Origin: an uncultured Eubacteriales bacterium
GTDB lineage: Bacteria > Bacillota > Clostridia > Christensenellales > Aristaeellaceae
Assembly (NCBI GenBank): GCA_900316415.1
Contig: ONCV01000008.1
Coordinates: forward strand, 1 to 64,000
Direction of reading: 5' to 3'
Length of the DNA stretch: 64,000 nucleotides
The translations under genes were made by a program, and so were the position numbers. Below the pieces are notes generated by a model that worked only from the letters and a program-made list of their open reading frames with translations, was not told the origin of the DNA and did not search any database. Of the stretch, positions 7,809 through 19,976 are shown one piece after another (positions within the stretch are counted from its first letter, which is position 1; each line of letters opens with the position of its first letter).

Positions 7809-10598
7809 TCAGTCCCGGAACGGCAGCTTCAGCTCCTCCGTCATCCGAACGGTCATCTCCTCCAGCCGAAGGCCGCTCTGGGCGAAGAACAGCTTGATAA
7901 AGTTGTTGGTCCGCATCATGACGCCCAGATCCAGGGTGACCTCCCGGGGTTCGCTGTTTCCGCCCCGGAAGGACAGGGTTCCCATATTGCTGCCGTTCAC
8001 GAAGACGGTCACGGGCACCTGGGCCAGGGGCTCCGCCTCCACCCGCAGCCGCAGCCGCAGCTCGAAGCGGCCGGGCTTTTCGATCTGGATGCCGTACACC
8101 CGGGACGCGCCCCGGTCCGTGCGGATGTCGCGGACGTCCAGCTCCAGCCGGTCCGCGATGGGATGGAAGGGGATGTCGAAGTCCACCCGGTCCTCCTCGT
8201 CCAGCTGCTCCGCCGCCTCCAGTTCCTCCCGGCTCAGGCGGTTCATCGTCCGGGCCATGACCGGGGACCGCATCAACACCCGCAGGATGTTCCCCGCGCT
8301 GCGCTGCAGCTCGCCCCGGGTCAGCCGTCCCTCCGCCAGGCGCTCCGCCAGGTTGTCCCGGGCGCTGTTCTCCCCGGCGCTGTCCACCACCATGTACACA
8401 TCGTTCTGCGCCCGCACCATGGCGGCCGTGTTCCGCGGGGAGGGCGCCTCCCCTTCGTCGTTGATGAAGGCCCACCAGTCGGTCATGACCATGCCGGTGA
8501 AGCCCCATTCCCCGCGCAGGATGGTCGTGTTCAGGTCATAGCTTCCCGCGGTCCACAGGCCGTTGAGGGATCCGTAGGTGGTCATCAGGGAATAGGCTCC
8601 CGCCTCCTTCACGGCGATCTCGAAGCCCTTCAGGTAGATCTCCCGCAGGGCCCGCTCGGAGATGACCGAATCCAGGCTGCGGCGGTGGAATTCCTGGTTG
8701 TTTCCCGCGAAATGCTTGATCGTTCCGGTCACGCCGTAGCTGTGCAGCCCCCGGAGCTGCGCCGCGGCGATCCTGCCCGTCACCAGCGGATCCTCGGAGA
8801 AATACTCGAAGTTCCGCCCGTTCAGGGGATTCCGGTGAATATTGATGCCCGGGCCCAGCAGCGTATCAATCCGGTTTTTGCGCAGCTCCGCCCCGAGGAA
8901 GGCGAACAGCTCCTCGTTGAGCTTCTCGTTGAAGCTGGAGGCCAGGCAGGTGCCGTTGGGCAGGTTGAACGCGTAGGTTCCGCAGTCCATGCGGATGCCC
9001 GAGGGGCCGTCCGCGCAGCAGCCGCAGGGGATGCCGAGGGCCTGCAGCGCGTCCGTCACTCCGCCGAAGGCGGCCGCCGTTCCCGGCGTCACCTTGGGGG
9101 AGCACATGCCCTCGCCCCGGACCATGGCGCACAGATCCGCGTCGGTCAGCTGGGACAGGAATTCCTCCAGCGTGTTCCGGCCGTCCGCCACGTCCGCCAG
9201 CCGGATCCCCCGATCTCCCTGGTACGGGATTTCCGGCGGCAGCTCCTCCTGAATCCGCCGGGCGGGATCCGCGGTACGGAGCGGAACCGCCTCCTCCGCC
9301 GGGATCAGCCTGCCCTCCGCGTCCTCCGCGGGGCGGATCCGGGAGAAGGGGAGCACGGGGGCCGCGGCCTCCCGCAGGGTCTCCGTCACCTCCGTCTCCG
9401 CCTGATCGAAGCTTCCCACGCGCGCGGCGGACCGCACATCCGTTCCCAGGAAGAAGGTATAGGTGCCCGCCTCCAGCACATAGCAGGACTTGTGTCCCGA
9501 GGCGCCGCTGTCGTCATAGGAGGCCAGGCGGGCCCGGGGAATCTCCAGAACCGCCGTTTCCGTCTCCCCGGGCTGCAGAAGCCCGGTTTTGCGGAACGCC
9601 GCCAGGGCCCTCGCGGGCTTTCCCAGCCGGCCCTGGGGCGGGCAGACATAGGCCTGCAGCACTTCCTTGCCGGCCCGGTCCCCGGTGTTGGTGATTTCCG
9701 CCCGCAGGCGGATTCCCGCCTCCGTGATTTCCATCGTCCCGCCCCGGACGGCGAACGTGGTGTAGGAAAGGCCGTATCCGAAGGGATAGATCACCCGCTC
9801 CGGGGCAAAGGTTTCAAACCAGCGGTATCCGACGTAGATGTCCTCCTGGTAGAAATCCCGCTCCGCGCCGCCGAAATTCCGGGTGGACGGATAATCCCCG
9901 ATCTCCCGGGCGATGGTGTCCGTCAGCTTGCCGGAGGGGCTGACCCGGCCCGTCAGCAGATCCGCCGCGGCGTGGCCGCCCTCCATGCCTCCCTGCCAGA
10001 CGTACATCACCGCGTCCGGCCGGATTTCCCCGACCCAGCGCATATCCATGATGCCGCCCGTGTTGAGCAGCACGATCATCCGGTCAAAGGCCTGCCGCAC
10101 CCCGGTCAGCATCTGCCGCTCCAGGGCCGTCAGCAGATAGCTGCCCTCCCCGTTGGTGGCATCCTGATCCTCCCCCGCGGTGCGGCCCAGGATGACCAGG
10201 GCCGCGTCGCTTTCCGCCGCCGCGGTCCGGAGAACGCTTTCCTCCAGGGGCATCTCCTCCTGGCTCCAGGGTTCCTTTCCCCATCCGCTTCCCCGGTCAT
10301 AGGGATGCGCCTGCAGCCACTCCCGGTAAACCCGCTCCACCCCTTCGTGGATCCGCAGGTCCTTCTCTTCCTTCAGCGCGTCGGGAATGCTGACGACGTA
10401 CCGGGTGTTCACCAGGCCGCCCGAGCCTGTTCCGCTCTTGTAATAGTTGAACTGGCTCCGCCCGAACACCGCGACGGTTTCCCCCTTCCGCAGGGGCAGC
10501 GCCCGGTTTTCGTTGCGCAGCAGCACCGCGCCTTCCGCCCCGGCCTCCCGGGCCTTCCGGGCATAGGCGTCCCACCGCATGAGATATCGGTTGCTCAT
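7809..10598 (-). CDS. GH3 glycosidase with permuted domain order
   Basis: This 929-residue glycoside hydrolase family 3 enzyme probably removes beta-linked glucose or xylose from oligosaccharides. The domain order is swapped. The alpha/beta C-domain comes first (about 20-260, with ILGRTAGEDQD and YPFGYGLSY), then an Fn3-like domain (about 290-380), then the catalytic TIM barrel (about 450-760, with KHFAGNNQE and the nucleophile Asp 707 in MTDWW). A final beta-rich segment of about 150 residues follows. This order is known in some rumen GH3 beta-glucosidases. There is no signal peptide, so the enzyme likely acts inside the cell on imported oligomers. The start follows GGGAGGAAGAAACGA. It lies 32 bases after the sortase stop. 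Confidence 0.9.
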   Translation of the reverse strand: MSNRYLMRWDAYARKAREAGAEGAVLLRNENRALPLRKGETVAVFGRSQFNYYKSGTGSGGLVNTRYVVSIPDALKEEKDLRIHEGVERVYREWLQAHPYDRGSGWGKEPWSQEEMPLEESVLRTAAAESDAALVILGRTAGEDQDATNGEGSYLLTALERQMLTGVRQAFDRMIVLLNTGGIMDMRWVGEIRPDAVMYVWQGGMEGGHAAADLLTGRVSPSGKLTDTIAREIGDYPSTRNFGGAERDFYQEDIYVGYRWFETFAPERVIYPFGYGLSYTTFAVRGGTMEITEAGIRLRAEITNTGDRAGKEVLQAYVCPPQGRLGKPARALAAFRKTGLLQPGETETAVLEIPRARLASYDDSGASGHKSCYVLEAGTYTFFLGTDVRSAARVGSFDQAETEVTETLREAAAPVLPFSRIRPAEDAEGRLIPAEEAVPLRTADPARRIQEELPPEIPYQGDRGIRLADVADGRNTLEEFLSQLTDADLCAMVRGEGMCSPKVTPGTAAAFGGVTDALQALGIPCGCCADGPSGIRMDCGTYAFNLPNGTCLASSFNEKLNEELFAFLGAELRKNRIDTLLGPGINIHRNPLNGRNFEYFSEDPLVTGRIAAAQLRGLHSYGVTGTIKHFAGNNQEFHRRSLDSVISERALREIYLKGFEIAVKEAGAYSLMTTYGSLNGLWTAGSYDLNTTILRGEWGFTGMVMTDWWAFINDEGEAPSPRNTAAMVRAQNDVYMVVDSAGENSARDNLAERLAEGRLTRGELQRSAGNILRVLMRSPVMARTMNRLSREELEAAEQLDEEDRVDFDIPFHPIADRLELDVRDIRTDRGASRVYGIQIEKPGRFELRLRLRVEAEPLAQVPVTVFVNGSNMGTLSFRGGNSEPREVTLDLGVMMRTNNFIKLFFAQSGLRLEEMTVRMTEELKLPFRD

Positions 10599-11739: not shown

Positions 11740-13494
11740 TTATTTCTTTCCCGCGGAGGCCGGGCTCAGCTTGATGGCCAGGTTGTTCAGGTTCAGGGAA
11801 TAGGTATACCGGACGTCCTCCGCCATGGCCATGACCAGGCGGATGCCCAGCGCGTCCCTCTCGCCCCGGGGCACATAGCTCACCGGATCGAAGGCCGTGC
11901 AGTCATCCCGGAAGCGCAGTACCCACTGCTCTCCCCGGTGCTGCACCCGAACGGACAGATGATGATCCTGCCGCCCGCCGAAGCCGTGGATCACGGTGTT
12001 GCTGGCCATTTCCTCAATGCACAGCGCGATATGATTCGCGGTGTGCTCGTCCTGCCCGTGCTGCCGGCAGAAGTCCTCCGCGTTCCGGGCGGTCTCGGTC
12101 ACCTCCGCCAGGGTGCGGATATCCGTTTCCATCAGATCCTCGGGACGGACGCCGAAGTCCTCCCGCAGCAGCAGGAAGGATTCCGGCTTCAGCGCCGCCC
12201 CGCCGGCCTGCTTCCGGACATAGAGAACCGTGCACAGCAGCGCCAGGCATTCCCCGGCCACAAAGTACAGCCAGGCTCCCGTAATCCCGAAGAAGCGGCT
12301 CAGCACAAAGGCGGCCAGGGAGGGCAGCAGCGCACCCTCCAGGACGGAGATCGTCTCCGTCAGCCGCACCCGCTCCGTTCCCTGATACAGGCTTTTCAGC
12401 ACGTTGTTCAGGCAGCAGGGAATCAGGCCCAGGGCGAAGAGCCGCAGGCCGTGGATGGCCATCCGCCGCACCTCGCTCTCCCCGGGAAGGAAGATGCCGA
12501 CCAGCACCGGCGCCAGGAGCATCAGCACCGCGCCCATGCCCGCGCCCAGCAGCAGCGCATACCGGGACAGGCGTCTCATCAGCTCCTTCAGCCCCGTCCG
12601 GTCCTCCTCATGGAACAGGATGCCGGACAGGGTCAGCGACACGCCGCCCACGCCCGTGGAAATGCAGTTGCTGGCGTTGCCGATGGTCATCAGCACCGTA
12701 TAGGCTGCCACCGCGGTGCTTCCGCCCAGGCCCATCAGAATCCGGTTCATCACATACACCAGCACCACCGACGAGGCCATGCCGAAGACGGTGGGAACGC
12801 CGCCCGCCGCCAGTTCCCGGATCTTTTTCAGGGAGATCCTTTTCAGGGAGAAGGCGAACACGCTCTTTTTCGACAGAAAATAGGTCATGGCGAACACCAT
12901 CGCCACATAATAGCTGAGGGAGGACGCCAGGCCCATTCCGAACATGCCGCCGTGGAACACGAAAACATTCAGCAGATCCAGCGCCACGTCCGCGACGGTC
13001 ATGCCCAGCACCGCCACGATCAGCAGGCTGCTCTGTCCCGCCATCTGCAGGAAGGGCACCAGCACCAGCGCGCCCATGGAGCCCGGAGCGCCCAGGATGA
13101 ATCCGGCCAGGTAGTCCCGGGTCTGATCAAACAGCCCGCCTTCCCTTCCCGCGCCCATCAGGGTCGCCAGGGGATTCCGGAACACCAGCACGATCAGCGT
13201 CATCGCCAGGGAGATGCCCAGCATCAGTCCGATGGCCGAGGAATAGCCCCGGTTGGTCTCCTCCTGATCGCCGCTGCCCAGGGATTTGCTGCAGGCCACC
13301 TGCACGCCCGCGGCCAACATGCTTCCGATGGCGCCGATCACCAGCAGGATGGGGTTCGCCAGCCCGTAGGCGGCAATCGCCTGCTCGCCCAGGAAGCGGG
13401 AGATCATGATATTGTCAATCAGCAGGCACAGGGAAACCGTCAGGGCGGAAAGCGTCTGGGCGGTCAGCATCTGACGGATCAGTTTCTTAATCAT
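11740..13494 (-). CDS. MATE-family exporter fused to an anti-sigma-type ATPase domain
   Basis: The first ~450 residues form a 12-helix MATE transporter, with the family-like start MIKKLIRQMLTAQTLSALTV. Residues 455-584 are a separate HATPase_c_2 (RsbW/SpoIIAB-like) domain. It has the N-box EEMASN (Glu 495 to Asn 499), a G1 box RDDCTAFDP near 530 and an LGIRLV G2 segment. RsbW-type domains bind ATP and phosphorylate STAS antagonists or sequester sigma factors. The fusion suggests export is coupled to such a switch, which is an inference. The total length (584) exceeds a normal MATE (about 450) by exactly this domain. A TTGACA promoter lies at 13578-13606. The cargo is unknown. Confidence 0.88.
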   Translation of the reverse strand: MIKKLIRQMLTAQTLSALTVSLCLLIDNIMISRFLGEQAIAAYGLANPILLVIGAIGSMLAAGVQVACSKSLGSGDQEETNRGYSSAIGLMLGISLAMTLIVLVFRNPLATLMGAGREGGLFDQTRDYLAGFILGAPGSMGALVLVPFLQMAGQSSLLIVAVLGMTVADVALDLLNVFVFHGGMFGMGLASSLSYYVAMVFAMTYFLSKKSVFAFSLKRISLKKIRELAAGGVPTVFGMASSVVLVYVMNRILMGLGGSTAVAAYTVLMTIGNASNCISTGVGGVSLTLSGILFHEEDRTGLKELMRRLSRYALLLGAGMGAVLMLLAPVLVGIFLPGESEVRRMAIHGLRLFALGLIPCCLNNVLKSLYQGTERVRLTETISVLEGALLPSLAAFVLSRFFGITGAWLYFVAGECLALLCTVLYVRKQAGGAALKPESFLLLREDFGVRPEDLMETDIRTLAEVTETARNAEDFCRQHGQDEHTANHIALCIEEMASNTVIHGFGGRQDHHLSVRVQHRGEQWVLRFRDDCTAFDPVSYVPRGERDALGIRLVMAMAEDVRYTYSLNLNNLAIKLSPASAGKK

Positions 13495-13577: not shown

Positions 13578-13606
13578 ATCATAAGGCCGGAATTCCCCGG
13601 TGTCAA
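13578..13606 (-). promoter_or_regulatory. promoter of the MATE-ATPase gene
   Basis: Minus strand: TTGACA (13606-13601), 17-base spacer, TATGAT (13583-13578). It lies 84 bases upstream of the start codon at 13494 and after the PL11 stop at 13670, so this gene has its own transcript. Confidence 0.7.
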
Positions 13607-19125: not shown

Positions 19126-19422
19126 TTAGGAGACCCGGATCACGTCCGTCAGGCCGGTAATCTCGAAAACTTCCTTCACCACGGAATTGCAGTGAGTTGC
19201 CTCCGTGATGCCTCCCATGGCAATGCTCCGGTGCGCCATAAGCACCACCCGCAGCCCCGCGGAGGAAATATACTGCAGGTCGCTGAAGTCCAGGATCAGA
19301 TGGTCAATCTCCTTCAGCTGGGGAATCAGCTTCTCCTGCAGTTCCGGAGCGGTGGCGGTGTCCAGCCGGCCCTCCACCTTGACCGTCAGCTCTTTTCCAT
19401 TCTGCGTCATTTCACACTTCAT
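19126..19422 (-). CDS. STAS-domain anti-sigma factor antagonist
   Basis: This 98-residue single-domain protein resembles RsbV/SpoIIAA, which switch between phosphorylated and free forms to release partners from anti-sigma kinases. The segment EGRLDTATAPEL at 18-28 and LDFSDLQYISSAGLRVV (44-60) are the family core. The phospho-acceptor is expected among Ser 53/54. The gene starts 17 bases after the degenerate ATPase gene, in the usual partner arrangement. No sigma factor gene is present next to it. A regulatory role is therefore likely, but the controlled process is unknown. Confidence 0.88.
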   Translation of the reverse strand: MKCEMTQNGKELTVKVEGRLDTATAPELQEKLIPQLKEIDHLILDFSDLQYISSAGLRVVLMAHRSIAMGGITEATHCNSVVKEVFEITGLTDVIRVS

Positions 19423-19439: not shown

Positions 19440-19976
19440 TTATTTCGCCGCGCCAAAGCGCTTGCTGACCGTAATCTCCACCGTGCCGCGCTGCACGCCG
19501 ATCTTCACCTCGTCCGCCATCCGCTTCAGGATGGAGCGCTCATACCCGTCCCACTCCGGCTCCTCCAGGACGCCGAAGGGCAGGTCCGCCAGAATATCGG
19601 TGGGAAGCGAAACGGTTTCCGGATCCGCGGCCATCGCTTCCTCGAACCTGTCCCGGATCTTTCCGAGGAAGGTCTTCGCCGCCTCGTTTTTCCGGGAAGT
19701 GGAGGAGGCGATCAGCTCCGCGCGCTTCTGCCGGTCCAGCACGGCCTGGGTGGCCATATGCATCACGGCCACGCCGTCTTCCATTTCAATCCAGAAGGAG
19801 GCCTCCATCTCGCCCGTCACACTGCGGGCCAGGCTGAGCATCTCCTCCGTCAGCACCTGCAGCTGAACCGCTTCGGCCGCGCTGATTCCCTCGTAGGCAG
19901 CGACCTTGCGGGTCTGCTCCACCGCGCTTTCAAATCCCTTTCCGGAATTGTCAATATGAACCGTATCAGATCTCAT
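19440..19976 (-). CDS. degenerate anti-sigma-type (HATPase-like) protein
   Basis: This 178-residue cytoplasmic protein has the helix around VLTEEMLSLARS (about 46-57) that aligns with the N-box of RsbW-like kinases, but the expected Asn is missing. The glycine-rich ATP boxes are not recognisable. The middle (about 95-150) is Lys/Glu-rich and the C-terminal strand ends EITVSKRF as in GHKL domains. It may bind its STAS partner without kinase activity. Its partner is the downstream STAS gene and its promoter is near consensus. Identification as an HATPase relative is an inference from the motif, the length and the partner. Confidence 0.6.
   Translation of the reverse strand: MRSDTVHIDNSGKGFESAVEQTRKVAAYEGISAAEAVQLQVLTEEMLSLARSVTGEMEASFWIEMEDGVAVMHMATQAVLDRQKRAELIASSTSRKNEAAKTFLGKIRDRFEEAMAADPETVSLPTDILADLPFGVLEEPEWDGYERSILKRMADEVKIGVQRGTVEITVSKRFGAAK

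Follow-up and report, generated by a model that had tools for sequence, protein, structure and literature searches.

Partner switching is best known for the control of sigma factors. The locus described here raises the question why a MATE exporter should carry, within one polypeptide, an ATPase domain of the type found in the anti-sigma kinases RsbW and SpoIIAB, and whether this domain ties the exporter to a circuit of STAS proteins and SpoIIE-type (PP2C) phosphatases. The window, i.e., the whole stretch of 64,000 nucleotides that was analysed, contains the gene with the following parts.

11740..13494, minus strand: MATE-HATPase fusion gene, a single uninterrupted ORF of 584 aa
12205..13494, minus strand: MATE exporter domain, residues 1-430, 12 helices (Pfam MatE; PDB MATE matches by sequence and fold)
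11767..12135, minus strand: RsbW/SpoIIAB-type HATPase_c_2 domain, residues 454-576 (Pfam PF13581; AlphaFold2 secondary structure)
13578..13606, minus strand: promoter-like TTGACA-17-TATGAT 5' of the fusion, near-consensus (1 found against 0.4 expected)

The earlier note had proposed that both domains belong to one protein, leaving the strand unstated, and this was confirmed. Both Pfam families were found in the one ORF above their curated cut-offs (MatE, E 4e-30; HATPase_c_2 at residues 461-565, E 1.6e-11, 44.7 bits against a cut-off of 27.4), while the score for the NCBIfam subfamily TIGR00797 stayed below the cut-off (133.0 against 147.4 bits), which by sequence marks the protein as a divergent member of the MATE family (MOP superfamily). 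The AlphaFold2 model, built with 53 relatives as input (pLDDT 86, pTM 0.85), has 12 long helices up to residue 430 and then, at 454-576, a domain with the topology beta-alpha-alpha-beta-beta-lid-alpha-beta-beta. PfMATE structures were the top PDB matches of this model in Foldseek, with TM-scores to the target up to 0.88. Since N- and C-termini are both cytosolic in the MATE family, the HATPase domain should be able to reach ATP as well as cytosolic partners. In addition, a ribosome-binding-like site, GGAAGGA, was found ahead of the ATG.

The boxes of the ATPase domain were not all preserved to the same degree.

11980..12015, minus strand: N-box, E494 E495 M A S N499 ... G504 F505, invariant in 18 diverse fusions and 53 orthologues
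11884..11910, minus strand: G1 region, R529 D530 D531 C532 ... F535 D P537, with the Asp retained and Cys in place of the glycine
11839..11850, minus strand: G2 remnant, L549 G550 I551 R552, canonical GGLG lid shortened

By their spacing, E495 and N499 presumably match the catalytic Glu and the Mg-binding Asn of SpoIIAB, and D530 is taken by us to match its adenine-binding Asp. The earlier description of the N and G1 boxes as intact was thus correct for E494-E495...N499 and for Asp530, but not for the G1 glycine, which is Cys532, nor does the canonical ATP lid survive, being reduced from GGLG to ALGIR; the canonical form was found only in distant fusions such as that of genome G466. Because of the Gly to Cys replacement and the short lid, ATP turnover by the fused domain is uncertain. 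E495, N499, and D530 were invariant throughout the orthologue group of the window protein, and eleven positions (E494, E495, N499, G504, F505, D530, C532, F535, G550, R552, and N570) in the 18 diverse fusions, a set (A1) assembled without selection by pattern. The invariance of Cys532 in the 80-locus contig-scan set is partly due to selection, since the search pattern required DDC. Among 137 distinct fusions, the Glu, Asn, and Asp were all kept in 111 and not in the remaining 26. A stand-alone RsbW gene was found within five genes of 10/26 degenerate and 7/111 intact fused domains (p=9e-5, uncorrected for kinship). The fused domain of G466 is canonical throughout, the GGLG lid included, and its operon contains genes for STAS and PP2C but none for a separate RsbW. 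As far as gene content can tell, this placement suits a domain with a conserved STAS-docking role, the kinase role being either kept or handed over.

The earlier note had allowed that the two domains might be separate genes in relatives and the fusion a local accident. A survey of domain architectures was run on 151 genomes of the GTDB family, i.e., 150 genomes and the window's own, and on a sample of 398 genomes from the phylum, and fusions of MATE with HATPase recurred across several Bacillota families, with identities to the window protein between 23 and 78%. Fusion orthologues with 52-78% identity, a few of them partial, were present in 39/151 family genomes, and many more had full-length relatives at 23-35% identity. 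In the phylum sample, full-length fusions were found in at least seven other genomes of several families, a lower bound as three candidates were scored per genome; one of them, G164, is a one-contig chromosome. Among 84,980 species genomes scanned, 523 relatives were found, and the 80 retained were mostly ruminant-gut Clostridia MAGs. When a tree was built from the MATE part, a branch with support of 99 separated 42 bare MATEs from a group of 54 fusions that includes a single bare MATE, which is most simply read as one old fusion event after which the domain was lost at least once. Judged from these comparisons, the fusion subfamily is old, conserved, and near-monophyletic, and the idea of a local accident fails. 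The genome itself encodes a second fusion of 586 aa with a degenerate N-box on contig C25 (L008:10465-12225, minus strand), in a cluster (L008:8234-12225) where it is followed by a SpoIIE-type phosphatase with a predicted membrane anchor and a canonical stand-alone RsbW.

The earlier note had also pointed to a stand-alone STAS gene about 5.6 kb from the fusion, and that gene was found as described.

19126..19422, minus strand: stand-alone STAS protein of 98 aa (Pfam STAS, E 4e-15), probably not the cognate partner of the fusion
19440..19976, minus strand: 178-aa degenerate RsbW-fold protein adjoining the STAS, without Pfam family, in a clade where no fusion-linked member was found

The second of these belongs to a family of 178-222 aa proteins, which have no Pfam match and usually adjoin STAS genes. 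A model of the 195-aa family made by AlphaFold2 (pLDDT only 66) matched SpoIIAB, RsbW, and UsfX in Foldseek at probability 1.00, while comparing the profiles of the 178-aa family and the fused HATPase domain gave no significant match. The family is a possible pseudokinase partner with a predicted degenerate RsbW fold.

There were two observations from the gene neighbourhoods. Firstly, a STAS, SpoIIE-type PP2C, stand-alone RsbW or 178-aa-type gene was located at most three genes away from 29/63 fusions and from 0/21 bare-MATE loci drawn from the same family as controls (p=2.6e-5, uncorrected for kinship), and on the basis of this contrast the link to partner switching is well supported. Within the orthologue group, 21/79 loci had a STAS, PP2C or 178-aa-type gene at this distance and 58/79 had none; nearby STAS genes shared the strand of the fusion in 13 of 14 cases. 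A recurrent gene set consisted of a STAS gene, a gene for a 195-222-aa protein without Pfam family and then the fusion. The second observation was that the same neighbours occur outside the family, where STAS adjoins the fusion in G164 and G283, and PP2C in G164, G466, and G291. The window fusion itself lies beside no STAS/PP2C/RsbW operon, its neighbours being a sortase, a GH3 enzyme, and a rhamnogalacturonan lyase. The general idea that the exporter is linked to partner switching by STAS and RsbW is supported by neighbourhoods with a negative control, but the choice of the particular STAS that had been named for it is not.

Several other architectures were seen along the way. In L063 (9765-10940, minus strand) a STAS domain is fused to an APH-type phosphotransferase, as shown by Pfam for this locus only; STAS proteins of similar length occur in L061, L064, L065, L075, L088, and L247, mostly near MATE-HATPase fusions. 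By profile labels, proteins with PP2C and HATPase are found near fusions in L084, L088, L092, L149, and L174, and one with HATPase and STAS in L095. The GH3 enzyme of the window (7809-10598, minus strand) has a swapped domain order, with the C-terminal domain (25-279) ahead of the N-terminal domain (519-774).

No SigB/F/G-type sigma factor was found above the TIGR02980 cut-off in the window genome, which is 97% complete (best score 136.7 against 234.35 bits), and the sigma-factor sequences read from it look RpoD-like (two) and SigH-like. Since the genome nevertheless has STAS, RsbW, and SpoIIE-type proteins, an output other than a sigma factor is favoured, and the exporter is a natural candidate for it as far as gene content indicates.

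Two features of the exporter part bear on how such an output could work.

13414..13416, minus strand: Asp27 in TM1, in the alignment at the position of the ion-coupling Asp40 of DinF-BH
12598..12609, minus strand: acidic motif specific to the fusions, E296-E297-D298-R299, in the predicted cytosolic loop that follows TM8 (column comparison)

The Asp27 column has Asp in 53/53 orthologues, 46/54 fusions, and 43/43 bare MATEs; in 5c6n the aligned position is Asn. Within the MATE part, no column told fusions and bare MATEs apart better than E296, present in 91% of the former and 2% of the latter, and D298 was found in 80 and 16%, respectively. MATE topology would place the loop after TM8 in the cytosol, which makes E296-R299 a candidate site for docking or gating. 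NRPS neighbours were considered as a pointer to the exporter substrate and dropped as unspecific, NRPS-type genes being near 6/71 fusions and 2/25 bare MATEs. In the window's own genome, a bare MATE gene (L112, C15:82646-83842) adjoins a 2038-aa NRPS-like gene.

We consider it fairly probable, at roughly 0.6, that the fusion protein belongs to a MATE subfamily with a cytosolic RsbW-type domain and serves a PP2C/STAS partner-switching circuit as its output at the membrane. Given the age of the fusion and its retention in many gut bacteria, it is probable that a phosphorylation circuit switches the exporter, or that the exporter helps to set this circuit. In the proposed mechanism, unphosphorylated STAS would dock on the HATPase domain and alter exporter activity by way of the acidic cytosolic loop that follows TM8. 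The STAS protein would be released once its serine is phosphorylated, either by the fused domain where Glu, Asn, and Asp are kept, as here, or by a separate RsbW, and a SpoIIE-type phosphatase would reset it. The binding of STAS, the direction of control, and the kinase activity in this scheme are what we infer. More tentatively, and at somewhat less than even odds, the system would be a sigma-independent switch, where STAS docking on the built-in RsbW domain gates a secondary-active MATE post-translationally, the kinase residing in the transporter in some branches of this large and old subfamily and in a separate RsbW in others.

The flow could also be reversed, as in the first alternative of the earlier note, so that the exporter is a sensor whose transport state acts on the fused kinase, and through STAS phosphorylation on other partners, either the degenerate RsbW-fold proteins of 178-222 aa or a downstream regulator. 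The kinase residues that are invariant in the window group fit this, as does G466, where no RsbW-like domain other than the fused one was found in the STAS/PP2C cluster. We regard a sensor as rather unlikely, however, since the genome offers no SigB/F/G-type sigma above the cut-off, and since many fused domains lost the Asn and/or the Asp and yet stayed fused and linked to PP2C, STAS or RsbW genes, which suits a docking domain better.

The candidates for the cognate partner are the two STAS proteins found in the genome, one in the window and one on contig C29, the latter paired with a 197-aa protein (L229:3847-4176 and L229:4198-4791, respectively). Ser53-Ser54 was invariant in 21/21 aligned STAS proteins, and the serine site SSAGLR is intact in both. 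The distance of 5.6 kb and the fact that only two STAS proteins were found speak for the window STAS. In a tree of the STAS-adjoining protein, however, its 178-aa neighbour fell in a nine-member clade (100/100) with no fusion-linked member in this sample, whereas the C29 pair grouped with those pairs that are linked to the fusion's closest orthologues; identity to a fusion-linked protein was 69% for the C29 protein and 46% (partial) for the window protein. This placement in paralogue clades makes the C29 STAS the better candidate partner. The earlier choice of the STAS at 19126-19422 is probably wrong, we consider it improbable as cognate partner, and its closeness to the fusion may be due to chance. 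The STAS pair and the fusion co-occur in 30 genomes (fusion in 39, pair in 41, of 151), a number confounded by common descent, as the window's genus also includes genomes that have the pair but no fusion orthologue.

Gating by energy state, where the HATPase domain would sense ATP/ADP and regulate the exporter without any STAS, would account for the retained ATP-contact residues next to a shortened kinase lid and the new invariant Cys532 and Arg552, as well as for the majority of orthologues that are not beside a STAS gene. It is quite improbable against a linkage to STAS/PP2C/RsbW that is far above the bare-MATE control, also outside the family, and against whole linked clades without ATP-binding residues. 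A chance or recent functionless fusion, or an assembly artefact, is hardly credible in view of the MATE tree, the one-contig genome G164, the second fusion in the same genome, and the invariant residues of the domain.

Compared with known systems, the reading of the exporter as a circuit output combines familiar parts. The MATE/MOP exporters PfMATE, DinF-BH, NorM, and ClbM share the fold, the Pfam MatE family, the 12 helices, and the TM1 Asp, while the fusion adds the C-terminal HATPase domain and the fusion-specific E296/D298 loop. With the anti-sigma serine kinases RsbW and SpoIIAB, the fused domain has in common the domain family, the N-box Glu and Asn, the G1 Asp, and the topology, but it is tethered to the membrane by an exporter, with the altered G1 and lid described above, in a genome where no SigB/F/G-type sigma scored above the cut-off. 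SiaABCD of Pseudomonas is a sigma-independent partner switch, with the SiaB-SiaC pair represented by PDB 6kko. SypE-SypA of Vibrio fischeri is likewise a partner switch without known sigma target (PMC8256260). Both consist of a SpoIIE-type phosphatase, an RsbW-type kinase, and a STAS-type protein acting on no known sigma factor, whereas the fusion has its kinase-type domain in one polypeptide with a transporter. The SulP/SLC26 anion transporters with C-terminal STAS are also transporters with a cytosolic domain of the partner-switching type; the fusion carries the opposite half of the pair, HATPase instead of STAS, and the transporter folds are unrelated. In Methanobrevibacter ruminantium, a MatE gene is grouped with serine phosphatase and anti-sigma-antagonist (STAS) genes in mru0066-0071, described as an NRPS cluster (PMC2812497), and by this published description the grouping is similar to the fusion loci. 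Full-text searches of the literature covered found no paper describing a MATE-RsbW fusion, while domain databases may list the architecture. MATE exporters, RsbW kinases, STAS partner switching, and switches without a known sigma target are all known already. If the proposed reading is true, a transporter would be directly under partner-switching control, in an arrangement that mirrors SulP-STAS with the opposite partner, and the fusion would offer a testable case of post-translational efflux gating in rumen and gut bacteria.
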